DNA of 64,000 nt from NCBI GenBank assembly GCA_024699855.1, contig JAMPIQ010000001.1, forward strand, positions 4,712,001 through 4,776,000, in the 5' to 3' direction. The notes beneath the pieces are model-generated. The model did no database searches. It saw nothing but the letters and a program-made list of their open reading frames with translations, and had not been told where the DNA came from. The stretch is from Aphelenchoides besseyi (taxonomy: Eukaryota > Nematoda > Chromadorea > Rhabditida > Aphelenchoididae). Positions within the stretch are counted from its first letter, which is position 1; each line of letters begins with the position of its first letter. Below are positions 3,663-63,595 of this stretch, piece by piece. Position numbers and translations under genes: made by a program.

Positions 3663-6221
3663 ATGCCGTGGAGTCGTCGTGCGAACGTTGCTGTTTGTAC
3701 GGTCAATCAATGGGCCTTGGATTTCGCTGGGAACCAAGAGCGAATTATCAAAAGTAAGCGATCTACTCAACTCGTTTAGCAACTGAATGTTTAGCGTGTC
3801 GAGAAGCCTACGAAAAAGGTGCTCGTGTTCGTCTTGGTCCTGAATTGGAAATGTAGGTTTTTTAGTAAAAGAAGCCTCATCTCGTGTTTTAGTTGTGGTT
3901 ACAATTGTGCTGATCACTTCTTCGAACTGGACACCGAACGCCATTCGTGGGAAGTTCTGAGAGAGATCGTTGAAGAATCGAAAAAGGTTGCTTGTTCATT
4001 CGTCAATTAAAGTCATTTCTTGAGTTTAGTTAAAAAACTTGCTTATCGTTACTGGAATGCCAATTCGACACAATTTGGCTTTGTACAACTGTTTAGCCGC
4101 TGTAATCAATGGACGAATTGTCATGATTTATCCGAAGAGTGCGCTTTGTGATGACGATATTTACCGTGAGACTCGTCATTTCGTCGCATGGAAACATCAT
4201 CGGCAAGTTTTCGACTATTACATCGAAGAAGAATACGGATTTGAACAGGTGTGTACGAAGCTTTATAAGTTTGATTTGTCTTCTTGTTCAGAAAACTGTT
4301 CCATTTGGCGACGGATTCGTGGAAAGTGCCGATGGGGTTCGAGTTGGCTTTGAATTGTGCGAAGAGCTGTGGACTGCGAAGACGAAAGCAGTGGACTTGT
4401 CGTTACGTGCTGTTGACATTATTTGTAATGGCAGCGGAAGTCATCATGTATTGGGAAAGTCACATCAACGAATCAACCAGTTGGTTTTGGGACAAACGCA
4501 AAAGTTGGGTGGAATCTACTTGTACGCAAATCATCGAGGCTGTGACGGCGATCGTGTTTATTTCGATGGAATGTCTTCTGTTGTAATGAATGGACAATTG
4601 TACGCTCAAATCAATCAATTTGATATTGAAGATACGGTAAGTAGCCCAAGCGAACATGCTTAATCACTAGTTTAGTGTGTTGTGAATTCGATTTTGGATT
4701 TGGACGAAGTCACTTCTTTTCGAAACAAGAAGAGTAGTTGTGAGCAAGTAAGCCGACGGATGTTTAGATGTTGAATGCTTTCGTCTTTAGGCAAGCCGAG
4801 AGCCACCAATGCCGATTATCCGATTTGACGGTCATTTACTTGAAATTCCACAACGAGTGGGTCAACCGCTTTCAAAGCCGATTCAAACCATACAACGGCC
4901 GGATATTGAAGAGTTATGTCATGGACCACCAGCGTGGCTGTGGCATTATTTGAGACGAAGTAAACAGGTAGATGACAACAAAATGTTAATAGTATGATTT
5001 CAATTGATAGAGTGGATTCTTTCTACCGCTTTCTGGGGGTCAAGATTCTTGTTCTGTTGCTGTTATGGTTCGATTGATGTGCGAGAAAGTTTGTAGTGCA
5101 GCCAGTAAAAATCCTGGTTGGTGATTAATTGATCTAATATTGAGCTTTTAATTTAGATAAAAACGATCCGGCTTATTATTTTCAAGGAAAACGTGTACCA
5201 ACAGATCCAAACGAATTATGCTCACAAATTCTTTACACATGTTATATGGGCACCGTAAACTCATCTGAAACAACAAAATCTGCTGCTCAGGGTTTAGCGA
5301 AAGATATTTCTTCCAATCATTCAAGGTAATGTCTACTGGCTAAACACTAGTTCTTTGTTTTCAGTATTGTTGTTGACAAGGCGGTAGATGCATTGCTTGG
5401 AGTCTTTCAAATGTCGTTCGGTTTGTGGTTGAGCTTCACGTCTTCTGACAATCGAGTGATCATGGCACTACAGAATATTCAAGCACGTATTCGTATGGTT
5501 CTTGCTTATCTATACGCTCAAGCATCTCTCGTCTATTACAATCGACCTGGAGGTCTATTGGTTCTGGGAACCTCGAATGTGGATGAAAGCTTAGTTGGTT
5601 ATGTAACGAAATACGATTGTTCGTCTGCTGATTTGAATCCAATCGGTTCGGTTTGTAAACGCGATTTGCGTTCATTTTTGCGTTATGTTCACGAGAATTG
5701 GGACTTTCCACACTTGCAGACGTGAGTTTTGTTGCATAGTGCACACTTATTTTACAGTTCAGGATTATCGATGCAACTCCAACTGCCGAACTGCGACCAC
5801 TTAAAGACGGAGAGGTCGTGCAAACAGACGAAGCAGAGATCGGACTCACTTATGATGAATTAGCGGTCATCGGATCAATCAGACGTCCCGGTTGTTGTGG
5901 GCCGTATGCTATGTTTCTTAAATTGGCATCACTTTGGTCTGATCGTTACACATACAGCGAGGTTCGGAGTAGCTGACGTTGTTGAATTTGATTATGATTT
6001 AGATTGGAGAGAAAGTCATACATTTCACGAAACGATACGCAGTCAACCGTCACAAAGCAACTGTTGCTACGCCCGCTTGTCATGTTAATCGATACTCAAA
6101 TGACGACCATCGGAATGATCATCGACCGTTTTTGTATCCTGACTTTGAATTCCAATTTAAAAAGATTCGCGAAGCTGTTGAAATGTTGGATCGACAGGAT
6201 GCCATACCACCACCATCTTAG
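3663..6221 (+). CDS. qns-1: glutamine-dependent NAD+ synthetase (NADSYN/QNS)
   Basis: Cytosolic enzyme that converts nicotinate adenine dinucleotide to NAD+ using ATP and ammonia taken from glutamine. The N-terminal nitrilase-type glutaminase domain keeps all three catalytic residues: Glu in RLGPELEI, Lys in IYPKSAL and Cys in FELCEELW. The C-terminal synthetase domain has the PP-loop [11 protein letters not shown], then [52 protein letters not shown] and [11 protein letters not shown], in the order of human NADSYN1. Most introns are about 40 nt; the stop is TAG at 6219-6221. One oddity is Gln where most members have Val or Ile in SGG-x-DS. The start at 3663 ([21 protein letters not shown]) matches the human N-terminus. 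Confidence 0.96.
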
Positions 6222-52043: not shown

Positions 52044-52755
52044 TTGTCTCTTTCAAGTGCTGCGTTCCACCAAAACGACTCCAAAAAGTGAGAAAAAGTC
52101 GATTGAATCCCTTGTAGTCACCTACTATTCACTCTTTTTCCTTTTTGCTTCGTGGATACAAGAAAAAGGCGCGTAAAGTTTGTCTGTCTGTATCCAAAGG
52201 TTGCCCGATTCGTGTGCACACTGATTTTTGAACGAGCACTATTTTTTATGATAATTTGGTGCTCGGTTCGTGCTCGCAATTGTCGAAGTCAAATGATCGA
52301 GAAAATGTGCATGTCGCTGTTTTGGTATCATCAACAGCCATTAGTTTTAAGCTGTCGATTTTGACATTCGATGCTGTAGAAAGAAGACGAGCACTTGCGC
52401 AATTCAATTGCCAACAAGAACGCGCACGACGACCAAGTACAGCGCAATAAAGATAGTCGATAAGAAATCACTTTGTCTGTTTGCAAATAATAAAAACAAA
52501 AATAAAAAAAACGTAGAAACAAAAACCGTCGAACGTTTGAAATGAATGCGAACGTTGAGATCAATCAAAAATTTGAACAGCCAACGGAAGACACTACTAA
52601 CCACCAATACGACCAACGAAAAACTCATACGACTATCAAACAGAAAAGCACTAATGCAACGAACAGCATTAGTGTCGCTTAGTTATATAAGCGATCGCGA
52701 TTTAACTGTAGGACGAATTGGGCGGAGAGAAAGCCCGCCGATTCGTTGACAATCG
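52044..52755. other. AT-rich spacer inside the inverted-repeat pair
   Basis: No supported frame. An A-rich run (ATAAAAACAAAAATAAAAAA) lies near 52485-52510. Confidence 0.35.
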
Positions 52756-53090
52756 AACGGCACACCTGGACAAAAACAATTAACAAACGCTAAGCGCAGT
52801 ACTTAAGTGAGATTAAATGGATGGAAGTGAAAGCAAAATGACCCGTAGATAAGGACCAAATCGCCAGACGTTCAACAGTGAGCGAGAAGTCACAAAGTAC
52901 TCAACACGCAACATACGAACGGCCCAACTGCACAAAACCAATCATCAAACGCTAAGTGCAGTACTTGAAGACGATCGTAAGATCAAAGGGATGGAAGTGA
53001 GAGCAAAACGACCCGTAGATAAGTACCAAATTGCCAGACGTTCAAAAGTGAGCGATAAGTCATGAAATAATCATTACGCAACATACGACA
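52756..53090. repeat. tandem repeat, two ~162-bp units plus a short third
   Basis: Unit 1 starts at 52756 and unit 2 at 52918; both carry AACGCTAAG, GCAGTACTT, GGATGGAAGTGA, GACCCGTAGATAAG, CCAGACGTTCAA and GTGAGCGA in the same order. A third copy starts at about 53089 and breaks off within 15 bp. Identity between units is about 85-90% by eye. No frame is maintained. Confidence 0.85.
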
Positions 53091-55760: not shown

Positions 55761-56652
55761 ATGGGCCTCACTTGTGAACAAGTGCGACTTCTGCTTCTCA
55801 ACGAATATCGTCTCCATCACTCGCCCGCTAAAGCCGCCACCATCATCAACTTGGCACATGGAGCGCGAAACGACCACCGAGAGGACGGCATGTCGATGGT
55901 TCAAAAAGTTCGACGATGGACTCGAGGATTTGGCCGATCAACCACGAACAGGACGTCCGCCAACGGTTCATCAACCGACGATTCTCAACGCTGTGTCCAA
56001 TCGATCTGCGCAATCAACTCGCGAATTGGCCAATGGTGTTGCCATGTAACCGTTTGGAGAACATTAAGACGAGCGGGCAAGCAATTCTTTATGTCTACAA
56101 TCACTAATGGTTATTCTCGTTTAGGTCTCCGGCATCGACGAGGACAGTGGGTACCCCACGAGTTGACGGACCTGCAGAAGCAACGGCGAGTCCGGGCTGC
56201 CGAAAATCTCCTCCAGCAGCAACGTGCCAACCCGTTCGTCCACCGGCTCCTAACCTGCGACGAAACATGGGTCCAACTTGACAATCCATATCGCCGTGGG
56301 CAATGGTTGCGTCCCAATCAGCGACCGGGTGGTACACCCCGGCCGAATCTTTTCCAAACAAAAAGTTATGTTTTCTGTTTGGTGGAATCGGTTAGGTGTT
56401 GTGCACTGGGAGTTGTTGGACCGCGGGCAGACGATCACTTCGGAACTGTACTGTGCCCAAATGGATCGAGTCGCCGCCGCCCTTCGTCATCGCCACGACG
56501 TTCTACTGCTCCAGGACAACGCGCGACCGCACACCGCCCGAAGAACTCAACAGCACCTGAGGACTTTGGGTTGGACGGCCATCGAGCACCCGCCGTACTC
56601 TCCGGACCTTTCGTCAACGGACTACCATCTCTTCCGTTCGCTAAAGACGTGA
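55761..56652 (+). pseudogene. mariner transposase, frameshifted
   Basis: DD(34)D transposase pieced from several frames. The N-terminal helix-turn-helix (GLTCEQVRLLLLNEYRLHHS) and the second helix block (WFKKFDDGLEDLADQPRTGRP) lie in different frames. First catalytic Asp is in LLTCDETWVQ, the second in VLLLQDNARPHTA, the third in HPPYSPDLSSTDYHLF. Frame changes occur near 55900, between about 56045 and 56060, and near 56360 (FQTK/KVMFSVWW), so no full protein can be made. The catalytic Asp residues are all still encoded. Confidence 0.88.
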
Positions 56653-57256: not shown

Positions 57257-60200
57257 ATGGGAATTAAAGTTTTCGTTCAAAATTGGGTTTATTGGTCCGA
57301 AGGTATTATTCCGCTGCGAACTATTCGCAAAAACAATTTCAAATATCTGAAATTCCTTTGGTCGGTCATCATCGTTCTCACATTTGTTGCGTTTTGTATT
57401 CACGCGGCCTTCTTGCTTGTTGATTATGTTCGCTTCGACAGTCGTGTGGATTTGAAGGCAAGTCATGAATTAACCTATGTTAATCACCGTATTTTTAGAT
57501 CTACTATCTGCCCAAAGTCACTTTTCCTGCCGTGACGGTTTGCAGCATCAATCCATTCAAACAAAACAAAATTAATCAAAGTTCTCAGCTGTCGCAGTTT
57601 GTAAGTGCACTTCAGATGTTGTGTGTGGAGAAGTTTTTTTAGATGGATGCTTATAATTTTATTCTGGAAAAACGCCAATCGCTTCTGAAGACAAATCAAT
57701 CAGCATTGAGGTCTTTTGATGACTCAAATTTGGACGAATTTATTAGATCAAAGAGACAAACGTGTCCGACGAGTTCGAAAGCCAATCAGTACAATACGAC
57801 ATTTACGTACGATATTCAATCATGTAACAACGTTAGTGTCGTTAAACTCTATTGCGCTGATAGATCGCTTGGTTTGCAATTGAACATGAGTTTTGAATTG
57901 GACACCAAACTAACGAAAATAATGGATGCTAGTTTTTACTATTGTCAAAGTCTTTATCTTTGTGGAAATGGTGATCCGTGCACTATATTTGCAAATACGA
58001 TGAGTGTTCTCAAAAACATTAATGGTTGTTTGACTGATCAGGGACTCATCGAAGAACTACAATATCCACCCGATTTCTTCGCCAACAATCCGGCAAATAA
58101 TATGGCAAGACAAGTCGGGATTAATTGCAACTTTGCAAATCGATATTCTACTTATTCTTATTTCGCAAAACCTTCAAATAAGTATAACGGAACTTATAGT
58201 TCAACTTCTGCAACACAGAACGGTATCGGCAATATCAACGCAACAATCGACAATTGTGATCGCTCCGGAACTGTTCTTGTTCGAGCATCTATACCCGCTA
58301 ATTGCACTAACAATTACATTAATATCATTAGCAATGTTACTCAATGCATGGCTGATTATTCTTGTGGTGATGCGTGTGTTTATGGTAACTGTCCGTTTAC
58401 TAAGACTCCGATGGAACAATGTGGAAATTCCGCTTATTACGATCTCATGTGCTCGATTGCTGTAAGACAAATAATCATGTTGTTTAAACTTAAAGATTCT
58501 CAGGTTTGCAATACAACAAGTTCAACAGAATATTCCACAACTACAGAATTAGCCACAACCCATGAATTGAGTACGAAAACATCTCAAGAATCAACAACAA
58601 GCTTTGAAGCGACTACTGTTATTGAAAAAACGACTACTGAACCAAAAATCTTATCCACTTCTACCGAATTAATCTCAACAGAAAGCTCTTCGTTTATCAC
58701 ATCGTCTTCCACTCTACAAAGCTCTACTACAACCATTTTAACAACCGAAAGTACGAGTTTAAGTCCGTCAACTTTGCAATCAATGACTACAACACAAACG
58801 TCTTCCGCTTATGAACCACACCCATCGACCTCAACTAGCGTCGAAACCAGTAGTCCTAATACTTTGTTAACTTCTACAAGTACTTCAGTTAGTTCAACCA
58901 CACAAACTTTAACATCTGAAACAACTTCCGAAAGCAGCACAAGTTTAAAAACGACAGAAACTACTAATGAGACCAGCACAACTCCAACGAGTACCGTTAT
59001 AAACTCTACAAGCGAATCCTCAACAATAATTACAAGCGCGTCAACATTGATTACAAGTCAAACATCCGTCGCAAAAACCTTATTTACAACTCCATTGACG
59101 TCGCTTTCAAGCTCATCCACGCTTCAACCAACTACTGACAGAACGACTTCATTGCATTCAACTGCTAGTACATTAAGCGCATTGGTGACTACTCCAACAA
59201 CAATTTTGACGTTTACTTTGCCATCGTCCGCGACTTCAATGAGCACACAAAAAACAACCCCAACAACTCCTGAACATTTAACTTCAAACAAAACACCGAA
59301 TTTACCGTTCACTACAAAATTTACAACTCAAAAGCCGTTAACATCATTAGCCACGAAAAAAGTAGCATCTACTTCAGAAGTCACCTTGTCGACAATTAAT
59401 CCAATTACAACTCCTTCAAACGCCTTACCTTCAACGAGTTTGCAAACAGTCTTTGCCCCAACAACACAAACATCTCCTTTTCCTATCACAAAAACCAGTA
59501 ATGAATCTTTAAGTTTAATTGCTTCTTCGACAAAATTGCAATTGGTAGAAACGAGCGTATTTCCGAGCTCTAATTTATCATCAGGAGTTTCTACGACCCC
59601 TAATCTTATCGTTTCTTCCACGTTAACAACCGATTTGAATGTTCCATTAACATCCTCAACGATCCTTTCAAGCCCTCAAACTTCGACGCACCAACCAATT
59701 ACAACAAAAGATGCAATAATGTCAACTAGTACATCGTCTGTCCTTCTTCCAAATTCCTCTGTAGTGATTTCAACGTCGCAAAGTACTACGAGCTCAGTTG
59801 CTACTTTAAGATCTTCTACAATTACTAAAGATTTTGGGGTCCAACAGACGACTTTAAATTCTCAAGCAACGAATAATAAACCTACAAACAGACCTTCGCT
59901 TTCAACTGGGACCACAAATCACGCACTTTTAACGTAAGAATCACAATCAAACTTAATGCAAATTAATTTAAGAACAAAACCACAAAGTTCCGCATATCGA
60001 ACATCGTTTGTCAGCCCAGCGTCAACAACTGTCGTTTCTTCAACTACCTCGCATGAAATTACATTAAGAAAAATAGCGAATTTATGGGGTTTAAGTGTAA
60101 GAACCGGGCTACAATTGATTTACGATAATTTGACATTCAGGAATATCAGAATCAACCGAGTTTTATTACTCATGTTCGTCAAGCGTTGATTGAGATAGCG

Positions 60201-61654
60201 GCTTCCTTGACGTCCGAAGAGCGTCAAGAACTGTGTTATTCGTTGCCTGAACTTGTGAGCTCGTGTAACATCGGAAAGATTCCGTGTGATATGGACAATG
60301 ACTTTAGTCGAGTGTTTGATGTCGACTACGGTTATTGCTATACATTCAATAGCGACAAGATAAGAGATGTTTATCAATCGAGTCAAACAGGTTCTTTACA
60401 CGGTTTGTTACTTTAAAAGCTATAAAAATAAATGAACTGTTTAGGGCTTCGTATGATTTTATTCACCAATCCGATTACTTATTTAAAGTCGACTGAATCT
60501 AAGGGATTCAAAATAGTTCTACACGATCAGGCCTACAATCCTTTTCCCAACACTGAGGGTTATTTCGGAGCAGTTGGGGAGAGCGTTCGATTTACCGTTG
60601 AAAAAGTAAGAAGGTCTCATTGAAACTATGAAGTTGATTTGATTAAGGATCGGTATTCACGGCTGAATCATCCTTACAATGAATGCGATGACCTGAATTC
60701 GTTGAAACAACGGAATCAACCGTTTTACTACGGCGGAGATTATTCGATTGAAGGATGTTTACGTTCCTGCTTCCAACAAAAGATGGTCAATGCTTGCGCT
60801 TGTGCTGATTCAAGATTTCCATACCCCAAAAACGATTCTTTCTGTTCTCAAACAAATTTGACGAACTGTAAGAACGTTTATGTATTAAATATAGGATAAA
60901 CATTTAGACGAATGCAATCAACGCTACATTGAAACCGAAGGAGATTACTACTTCGTTGATTGTGATTGTGCGAATTCGTGTAAACAAACCGAGTACTCTG
61001 CTCAATTGTGGAAGGCTTCATGGCCGAACGGCGCTTTCTTTTACGAACAATACTGTCCATCGGCAGAATTGTCGAGTATTAGTTGCGAAGAGTACTACAG
61101 GCAATCGAATGATTTGCTTTCTAACACAATTTTTGCTTTAGAAATAACTCCGCTGAGATCCTAGTTTATTACAATCGTCTTCGGTATTCGGAGTATATTG
61201 AAAGACCGCAAACTACATTCGTCGATCTACTGAGTGCTTTGGGAGGAGCGACAGCTCTGTGGATTGGTTGTTGTGCGATCTTTGTTGGTGAACTACTGCT
61301 CTTGTTCATTCAATCGATTCTATGGTGTTTTTGTTGCAAAGAGTTACCAGAAGTTCCCAGTTGTCGACATTTAGATTACGGAGACGATGCGAGAAAGGAT
61401 CAGTGGTTAAAGGAAGGAAGTTCGGCAGACTTGCTAAGTGTTCAACGGCCTCTACATCTCGAGAATCACATGCAGGAAAAACGTAAGCGATTAAATTTCT
61501 GTAATAGTATAACTTTGTTTTAGTTCTTGATAATGACATTCTTTTCTCCGAATACCACGTAATGTACAAACAAATTATTCCGCTTCATCACATCGATCAT
61601 ATTCCACCCACACCAGTTTCTTCGGCGCCCGTTTCTCGTGTTTACATCGACTGA
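57257..61654 (+). CDS. DEG/ENaC channel with Cys-rich and mucin-like extracellular insertion
   Basis: Amiloride-sensitive channel family, roughly 1,300 residues against 500-800 usual. Exon 1 (57257-57457) has helix 1 (FLWSVIIVLTFVAFCIHAAF). Exon 2 has VTFPAVTVCSINPFKQN. Exon 3 (57643-58461) starts with an RSKR-Q site and a 270-residue Cys-rich, Asn-glycosylation-rich region. Exons 4-5 (58504-59933, 59973-60096) encode about 518 residues that are almost all Ser/Thr, a mucin block. Channel sequence resumes with YGYCYTFN, GCLRSCFQQK, MVNACACADSRFPYP, YYFVDCDCANSC and LLSALGGATALWIGCCAIF, then a cytosolic tail ending SRVYID. The filter position is G-C-C rather than G/S-x-S. The first intron uses a GC donor (AAG|GCAAGT). 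The N-terminal His-Gly motif is not seen. Confidence 0.88.
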
Positions 61655-62445: not shown

Positions 62446-62899
62446 CAAAGATAAACAGTTTTTAAGTTGGGATCAATTTCTTTCAGTGGAATGTCGAATT
62501 TACAAAACAATCTATTCGAGTGGTATTCTTGTTTTCAGTTTTACTGGCTGTAAATTTTTCGAGATGTTTGGCCATTGATTCATTAGAATTCATGATTGAC
62601 ATTTTCTCTGGGTTATGATTGTGTGCGGGGTAATTGAACTCCGTTTTATTGTTAGGTTTCATAATCCAATCTTTTCTCGAATACCCTTCAATTCTTGCTT
62701 ACTAATCGATTATCTCTTCGCTGATGCGTTCTGAAATAAATTAATTTAAAGGAACATTATAGTGTTTGAATTACTCGTTTGTTTAAGATCTTGGCAATGC
62801 CATTGGTAATTTTGAGTATGTAATGATTTCCCCGCAAACAATCGGCCTTCGTTGCCCCGTCCTTATGATGTGCACATAAGAAGGCCCGTGCGTTCCGAT
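62446..62899. other. AT-rich region, possible exon on minus strand
   Basis: Apart from the possible upstream exon of the preceding minus-strand frame, nothing supported. Confidence 0.3.
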
Positions 62900-63595
62900 C
62901 GAATTTGTGCGTGAAGGACGAAGTGTGCTAAACATGTTACAGATTAAGCTCAAACTAACATCGACAAAAATTACGTTTAGCACATGCTCTAGAGCCGTGA
63001 TGCAGTTGTCGCATGCACGATGGGACCCGGTCCATTTCAAACTTCGAGTCCGTGATTGGTCGAACAATCAGTTCCCAAGGCGTTGGATGGGTCGTGGAGG
63101 AGGCAATTCTGTTGCTCCATATCCGTGGCCATCTTACAGCCCGGATTTAACCCCGTGTGACTTCTTTCCTTGGGTTATCTCAAAGATCGGATCTATCGGA
63201 CGGAGCCAGAAAAACTGGACGACTTGAAAGGACGAATCGAACGGGAATTCCCAAATATGGATCAAGAATTGATTGATCGAGCAGTGGACGATTTTGAACG
63301 ACGAGTGCACAAACTTATTCAAAACAACGGAAAGCGTGTTGCTATTTAACGGATAAACGATTGGAAAAAATGACCGTTTAAAACGCTCATAATTGGAAAA
63401 TTTTGTCAAATTCTGCATCATTTGGCCAAGATGCAATTTTCGAGCCATTCCGATAGAATTTTGCAACTTTTCTCGACGTCAAACAAAAATTCCCAGTCTT
63501 CTTTATCAACAACAAAAAGCCACATAAAAAAACGGTTCAGAAATCGCCGAGAAATAAGCGTTCAAAATCTTCCGGTTGTGCTGGAACACCCTGTA
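62900..63595 (+). mobile_element. Tc1/mariner-type relic, 5' end missing
   Basis: The right end near 63580-63595 reads, in reverse, TACAGGGTGTTCCAGCACAACC, a common terminal motif of this superfamily, with TA next to it. Inside is the C-terminal half of a transposase. I found no partner left end between 61.6 and 62.9 kb, so the element is truncated. Confidence 0.65.
63000..63349 (+). pseudogene. Tc1/mariner-type transposase C-terminal part, frameshifted
   Basis: Reads DPVHFKLRVRDWSNNQFPRR and WMGRGG, then WPSYSPDLTPCDFF (third catalytic Asp region), then, after a one-base loss near 63172, LKDRIYRTEPEKLDDLKGRI and RRVHKLIQNNGKRVAI with TAA at 63347-63349. A second shift lies near the DDG-like motif around 63025. 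It is not the same family as the mariner at 55.6 kb: the P-C-D-F-F form differs from S-T-D-Y-H. Confidence 0.78.

Follow-up and report, generated by a model that had tools for sequence, protein, structure and literature searches.

A predicted mucin-like block at the putative GRIP site of a DEG/ENaC gene in Aphelenchoides besseyi and its relatives

INTRODUCTION

Among described members of the DEG/ENaC family, vertebrate ENaC alpha and gamma subunits carry a region, GRIP, between finger helices alpha1 and alpha2, with beta strands and paired cleavage sites, as given in extracts of PMC6197857 and PMC8791634. The latter links paired tracts with land vertebrates, and neither 'nematode' nor 'invertebrate' appears in its main text. 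Here we describe gene A, a predicted DEG/ENaC gene of the nematode Aphelenchoides besseyi that encodes a long Ser/Thr-rich block, found in a 64,000-nucleotide stretch of DNA that was analysed as a whole (the window; assembly GCA_024699855.1, contig JAMPIQ010000001.1, positions 4,712,001 to 4,776,000 of the forward strand). Vertebrate ENaC is its best solved match by sequence and fold, and the two are alike in having a polybasic site in the stretch that separates the finger helices. Where GRIP has beta strands and paired sites, however, gene A has a Ser/Thr stalk and one RxKR, and where the ENaC filter ends in Ser, the gene A filter reads GCC.

Two C. elegans proteins offer narrower comparisons. 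EGAS (EGF plus ASC), known here from a figure legend, is likewise a nematode DEG/ENaC with an added module, but that module is EGF while the one in gene A is mucin-like. DEGT-1 likewise has a filter without the conserved Ser (GAT) and is likened to gene A by the filter alone; extracts of PMC8536179 still count it in the DEG/ENaC family and report that DEGT-1d, with this GAT filter, favours K+ and Cs+. In an extract of PMC8223032, plasmin increased the MEC-4(d) current with MEC-6 present, and not the UNC-8(d) current.

A preliminary description of the window held that no DEG/ENaC of this kind had been described. That stands for the literature: no such channel was among the matches listed for degenerin/ENaC with mucin, Ser/Thr-rich or O-glycosylation, in a search whose coverage left out most subscription journals. 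It does not stand for the databases, where unnamed proteins share the architecture.

RESULTS

A Ser/Thr-rich block in a channel gene

The block is real, most likely part of one gene, and common to paralogs and to another family rather than a singleton. By splice-site inspection gene A runs on the + strand from 57257 to 61654 in 11 predicted exons, closes at a stop codon and encodes 1,327 aa; its ten introns measure 39-44 nt, with predicted phases 0,0,0,2,0,1,0,1,2,1. Compared with Pfam at full length, the protein matched ASC and no other family at E up to 1; the match (9.5e-56) falls into two stretches, of which 891-1223 is the better. Its score of 190.1 bits against a curated cut-off of 23.6 places the protein in the DEG/ENaC family, and the EGF domain of EGAS was not found. 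Homology indicates two membrane segments and a large Cys-rich ectodomain, the region of the first segment (TM1) aligning to ENaC beta and the second (TM2) forming a helix in the predicted model, and the ectodomain is assigned the ENaC/ASIC fold. On sequence grounds gene A encodes a DEG/ENaC subunit, and its relatives include at least two further A. besseyi loci, genes B and C below, and three Panagrolaimus davidi proteins.

The block covers residues 377-877 (501 aa, the edges set by eye on a 20-residue profile) and contains 114 Ser, 140 Thr, 31 Pro and no Cys. Ser plus Thr (S+T) makes up 51% of it versus 14% of the remaining protein, so that in composition it is the long Ser/Thr/Pro-rich stretch expected of a mucin-type sequence. 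It is coding, and not a product of chance. The frame at 58504-59931 has no stop and 50% S+T, while stops number 8-52 in the remaining five; across 1,000 dinucleotide-preserving shuffles the mean was 20 stops (minimum 9) and 21% S+T (maximum 27%). Scored by the best 100 residues among the 96 open frames of at least 100 aa in the window, the block frame reaches 65 S+T and the runner-up 33.

Exon 4 (58504..59933) begins with the final Cys of a Cys-rich head and then holds the bulk of the block, and exon 5 (59973..60096) holds the block end and a pre-helix, ITLRKIANLWGLS. Together they make 1,554 nt or 518 codons, as first counted; the phase-0 end of exon 3 at 58461, which splice-site inspection finds possible, and the phase-0 resumption of exon 6 at 60141 were also read correctly. 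Predicted intron 3 (58462..58503, 42 nt) lies within the Cys-rich stretch and has no equivalent in gene B. Because it is in frame and stop-free, the open reading frame 57643-59937 stays open even unspliced. With this intron removed, the gene A joint matches gene B without a gap (SAYYDLMCSIAVCN / SYYYDLLSEWAECN), which supports its splicing.

Position of the block, Cys-rich head and protease site

For a block-less gene A query the best solved sequence by phmmer was human ENaC beta, with residues 49-121 and 224-549 aligned and 122-223 unaligned. The insert falls where ENaC beta 122-223 would lie and is followed by a predicted helix (residues 897-914). The alignment and this helix place it at the ENaC GRIP site, between finger helices alpha1 and alpha2.

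Exon 3 (57643..58461) encodes the finger region, a furin-type RSKR (residues 136-139) and then the Cys-rich head (residues 140-376, with 17 Cys and 7 sequons), the final two codons of which are in exon 4. Pfam gave nothing over its cut-off for the exon-3 head, a Cyclotide match at 0.037 falling below it, and a PDB search gave no useful match (an antibody chain at 0.079). Apart from RSKR the protein has no RX[KR]R, so two polybasic sites around an inhibitory tract are not present in gene A; the gene C pieces have two. The RxKR motif occupies one alignment column in all four rows that cover the N-terminal half. In the A. besseyi genome, RX[KR]R occurs 120-270 nt downstream of 9 of 17 FPAVT anchors, including those of genes A and B, versus 10.7% of random places (binomial 2e-5). 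We treat this enrichment as a lead, because the anchors were preselected, the span was set after seeing the distances and the pieces are six-frame translations. Convertase-type sites in the finger may possibly be common among nematode DEG/ENaCs.

Paralogs and growth of the block

We surveyed 20 of the loci around the other ASC matches of the A. besseyi genome. Long Ser/Thr open frames lie beside the channel in two of them, gene C (L031, C1:13.91 Mb, 472 aa) and gene B (L032, C2:14.68 Mb, 390 aa), so that blocks of this type occur in three A. besseyi ASC loci. Gene B retains the start, TM1, FPAVTVC, RHKR, the Cys-rich head and the C-half; its N-terminal MGVVTFSKNWMYW agrees with MGIKVFVQNWVYW of gene A, and it has the only match to the head elsewhere in this genome. 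No intron separates head and block in gene B, and the gene C block continues into SRIALESQVQDRMQQ...SCAFNQIPCDYDA in one frame, block and channel half sharing the open frame 4599-6014. Each junction therefore lies inside a single open frame, head to block in gene B (and in gene A even unspliced) and block to channel in gene C. The claim of one DEG/ENaC gene with a long mucin-like ectodomain block is supported by these open frames together with the order seen in P. davidi. N-terminal pieces of gene C (TM1, FPAVTV, RKKR, RVKR) lie upstream and were left unjoined. About 2.7 kb at L031:1883-4599, between gene C Ser/Thr stretches that bear the same 27-bp unit, is unassigned and may be an insertion, a long intron or a sign that gene C is broken.

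The paralogs bear signs of growth. Four successive exons of the gene B block, of 96, 132, 114 and 75 nt, begin and end in phase 1, and by eye a motif is common to two of these exons and the beginning of the following one. Gene C has a 27-bp tandem unit in 10.1 copies at 4621-4894 and in 4.5 copies at 1337-1457. On different contigs, genes B and C have 411 bp in common at 88.6%, exons and introns alike. Together these features favour growth of the block through duplication in place and exchange among loci, and we infer the same for gene A. Nucleotide matches of the gene A region to genes B or C do not exceed 113 bp.

Relatives in other nematodes

Three P. davidi gene predictions, P0003, P0004 and P0005 (A0A914P3E6, A0A914PRE1 and A0A914PEL8; 1,402, 1,347 and 1,345 aa), have the same order: TM1, FPAVTVC, RFKR, a block of 646-765 aa with 46-47% S+T, and the ASC C-half. 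They resemble gene A in the TM1 half with FPAVTVC, the RxKR, the Ser/Thr block, the C-half and a noncanonical filter (GIT), but are only 34-36% identical to it and are without the Cys-rich head. No paper on these three proteins was found.

At E 1e-5 the block-less protein retrieved 5 matches and the C-half 3, and a third search therefore used a permuted profile. It found 60 proteins, 19 of them from nematodes: four from A. besseyi, three from A. fujianensis, five from avenae (entries listed under Aphelenchoides or Aphelenchus), three from Bursaphelenchus xylophilus and four from P. davidi, several of the 19 being the same gene. FPAVT, the motif after the first membrane segment, is absent in 16 of the 19, most of which are probably truncated gene models. 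Some start in Ser/Thr-rich sequence (S+T in the best 100 residues: P0007 48, P0012 40, P0010 35, P0017 33), and the start of most others lies shortly ahead of the finger helix or beyond that point. Ahead of the helix there are 60-82 residues with 13-22% S+T in P0011, P0015 and P0016, and 266 residues that look unrelated, with 14%, in P0014. For A. fujianensis, avenae and B. xylophilus, among whose entries no full-length protein was found, an upstream stalk is an inference, stronger for P0010, P0012 and P0017. These results suggest a channel subfamily of Aphelenchoidea and Panagrolaimidae that is undescribed in the literature found; it has probably escaped notice because the N-terminal half is missing from 16 of the 19 nematode entries.

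Long inserts (462-721 residues) between FPAVT and CYTFN also occur in P0024 (Ptychodera), P0025 (Cherax) and P0049 (Palaemon), but with lower S+T, 9-21%; the Ptychodera insert has LDLa domains and the Cherax insert A/P/T/V repeats. In P0025 (Cherax quadricarinatus) the repeats, at the same site, are possibly a second, independent mucin-like insert.

Pore filter

The gene A filter is GCC (residue 1213, exon 10), without the Ser that is typical, though not defining, at the third position. Among matches with a readable filter, the triplet ends in Thr or Cys in all 17 nematode relatives (of 19) and in Ser in all 25 non-nematode ones (of 41). Nine filters were read in A. besseyi loci; Ser closes seven of them, that of gene C (GAS) included, and the two exceptions are genes A (GCC) and B (GFT). 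In extracts of PMC8536179, PK/PNa of alpha-ENaC S589C is 1.781 for mouse and 0.227 for rat. With GCC, altered ion selectivity is plausible; with the Thr filters it is uncertain.

DISCUSSION

By sequence, gene A encodes a DEG/ENaC subunit in which the stretch at the GRIP site, between the finger helices, has grown into a Ser/Thr-rich, mucin-like stalk. The Cys-rich head precedes the stalk in genes A and B, and RxKR lies on the N-terminal side of the stalk and, in these two genes, of the head as well. We think it somewhat probable that the stalk is O-glycosylated and regulatory, and perhaps open to nicking by a convertase, in a channel possibly more permeable to K+. Lengthening would have been by in-place repeat and exon duplication, as seen in B and C and presumed for A. 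The stalk would be densely O-glycosylated and extended, projecting above the trimer. In the secretory pathway the protein may be nicked at RSKR by a proprotein convertase, after which head and stalk would stay held to the finger helix by the C-terminal end of the stalk. The stalk could then act as a regulatory lever, a tether or a shield, and the channel may be more K+-permeable than ENaC. This would locate a glycan-type stalk where proteolysis switches ENaC, and the filters suggest altered ion selectivity for the channel group.

Several observations weigh against this reading. TRF found no tandem repeat in the gene A block. With one RX[KR]R in gene A and a single one between the FPAVT and CYTFN motifs in each of P0003-P0005, there is no indication that double cleavage releases a tract as it does in ENaC. 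At 8 of the 17 FPAVT anchors RX[KR]R is absent from the span, and 7 of the 9 anchors that have it are in stalkless ASC loci (L033, L034, L036, L040, L042, L044 and L045). A single-sequence model of the head had a predicted local distance difference test score (pLDDT) of 33.5, too poor for structure search. As to the pore, the gene C filter is a canonical GAS, Thr is commoner than Cys in the filters of the nematode relatives, and mouse alpha-ENaC S589T is tabled N.P. for K+ in the extract of PMC8536179.

We think it unlikely that the block plays no particular part, being a neutral, disordered spacer that has undergone drift and expansion. The shortness of any nucleotide match between the gene A region and genes B and C, and the rapid turnover implied by the 27-bp units and by the 88.6% stretch that includes introns, would suit such a spacer, but S+T is kept at 46-51% over 501-765 residues in gene A and the three P. 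davidi proteins, and the blocks are nearly Cys-free (one Cys, in P0003) beside kept flanks.

A stronger version of the stalk reading, which we regard as a rather long shot, is that a convertase cut at RSKR releases the N-terminal side of the Cys-rich head, which remains at the tip of a mucin stalk of about 500 residues anchored to the gating finger, and that a K+-permeable pore is gated when the head is bound or pulled or when a protease cuts the stalk. If true, such a channel would be the nematode counterpart of the ENaC proteolytic switch.

It is very improbable that two neighbouring genes are present, one for a TM1 protein with a Ser/Thr tail (stop at 59937) and one for an ASC C-half from 59956, although the deposited model draws them so. 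The closest protein to gene A, A. besseyi P0001 (M3Y96_00137000, 479 aa, 99% match), is without the TM1 half and begins MQINLRTK, encoded from 59956 in the last part of the block; P0002, P0006 and P0018 of A. besseyi likewise begin at or after the block end. A stop is met at 59935-59937 if intron 4 is unspliced, and one AATAAA, at 59875, lies ahead of it. Each half, however, would hold fewer than two membrane segments, exon 4 closes with a GTAAGA donor, and the same order is found in gene B, in part in gene C (one frame, 4599-6014), and as a single predicted protein in P. davidi. The paralogs and P. davidi point to P0001 as a truncated model.

The preliminary description had proposed that a mucin module was shuffled in between phase-0 introns. 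A mechanosensor or a protective channel, as it also proposed, would be candidate roles. Both flanking introns of gene A are indeed in phase 0, but neither sits at a block edge: the 5' intron falls two codons ahead of the Ser/Thr run, inside the Cys-rich stretch (between MCSIA and VCNTTSS), and the 3' intron falls 15 residues beyond it, after the pre-helix (between ITLRKIANLWGLS and EYQNQ). Pre-helix-like sequence was read by eye in relatives (IADAYDLQ in P0006, LADLFGLS in P0012, LSRAYGLD in P0010); an automatic pattern search had no match, and the motif rests on the reading by eye. A symmetric 0-0 pair is unremarkable because 5 of the 10 gene A introns are in phase 0. Despite the 3' intron and phase common to gene B and the symmetric phase-1 exons in the gene B block, insertion of a ready-made module is scarcely credible, since the gene A introns lie off the edges of the block and are not both present in the paralogs, gene B lacking the 5' one and gene C the 3' one.

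Remaining exons and surroundings in the window

All exons are on the + strand. Exon 1 (57257..57457) has the start codon, N-terminus and TM1, and ends in phase 0 at a GC-AG intron; exon 2 (57499..57600) starts the ectodomain, with FPAVTVC at residue 76, and lies in the phmmer stretch to ENaC beta. Exon 6 (60141..60402) encodes the predicted finger helix and YGYCYTFN, exon 7 (60445..60605) ectodomain, exon 8 (60648..60867) the Cys-rich ASC motifs and exon 9 (60908..61100) further ectodomain. A GC donor is used for exon 9; the deposited P0001 closes this exon nine bases sooner (SCEE joined to NNSAE), and the GC donor is favoured because P0006 has FYR at that place. Exon 10 (61142..61482) holds the filter and TM2 and begins the cytosolic tail, and exon 11 (61524..61654) holds the C-terminus and stop.

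Rfam and tRNA scans gave no match within the window. Just upstream of the channel gene lies a mariner-type transposase remnant (56254-56652, +; Pfam Transposase_1, 1.2e-16). An open frame at 62880-63227 (+), with no Pfam match, contains the motif SPDLTPCDFF, which we take to resemble transposase. A 170-bp tandem unit is present in two copies at 52754-53088.
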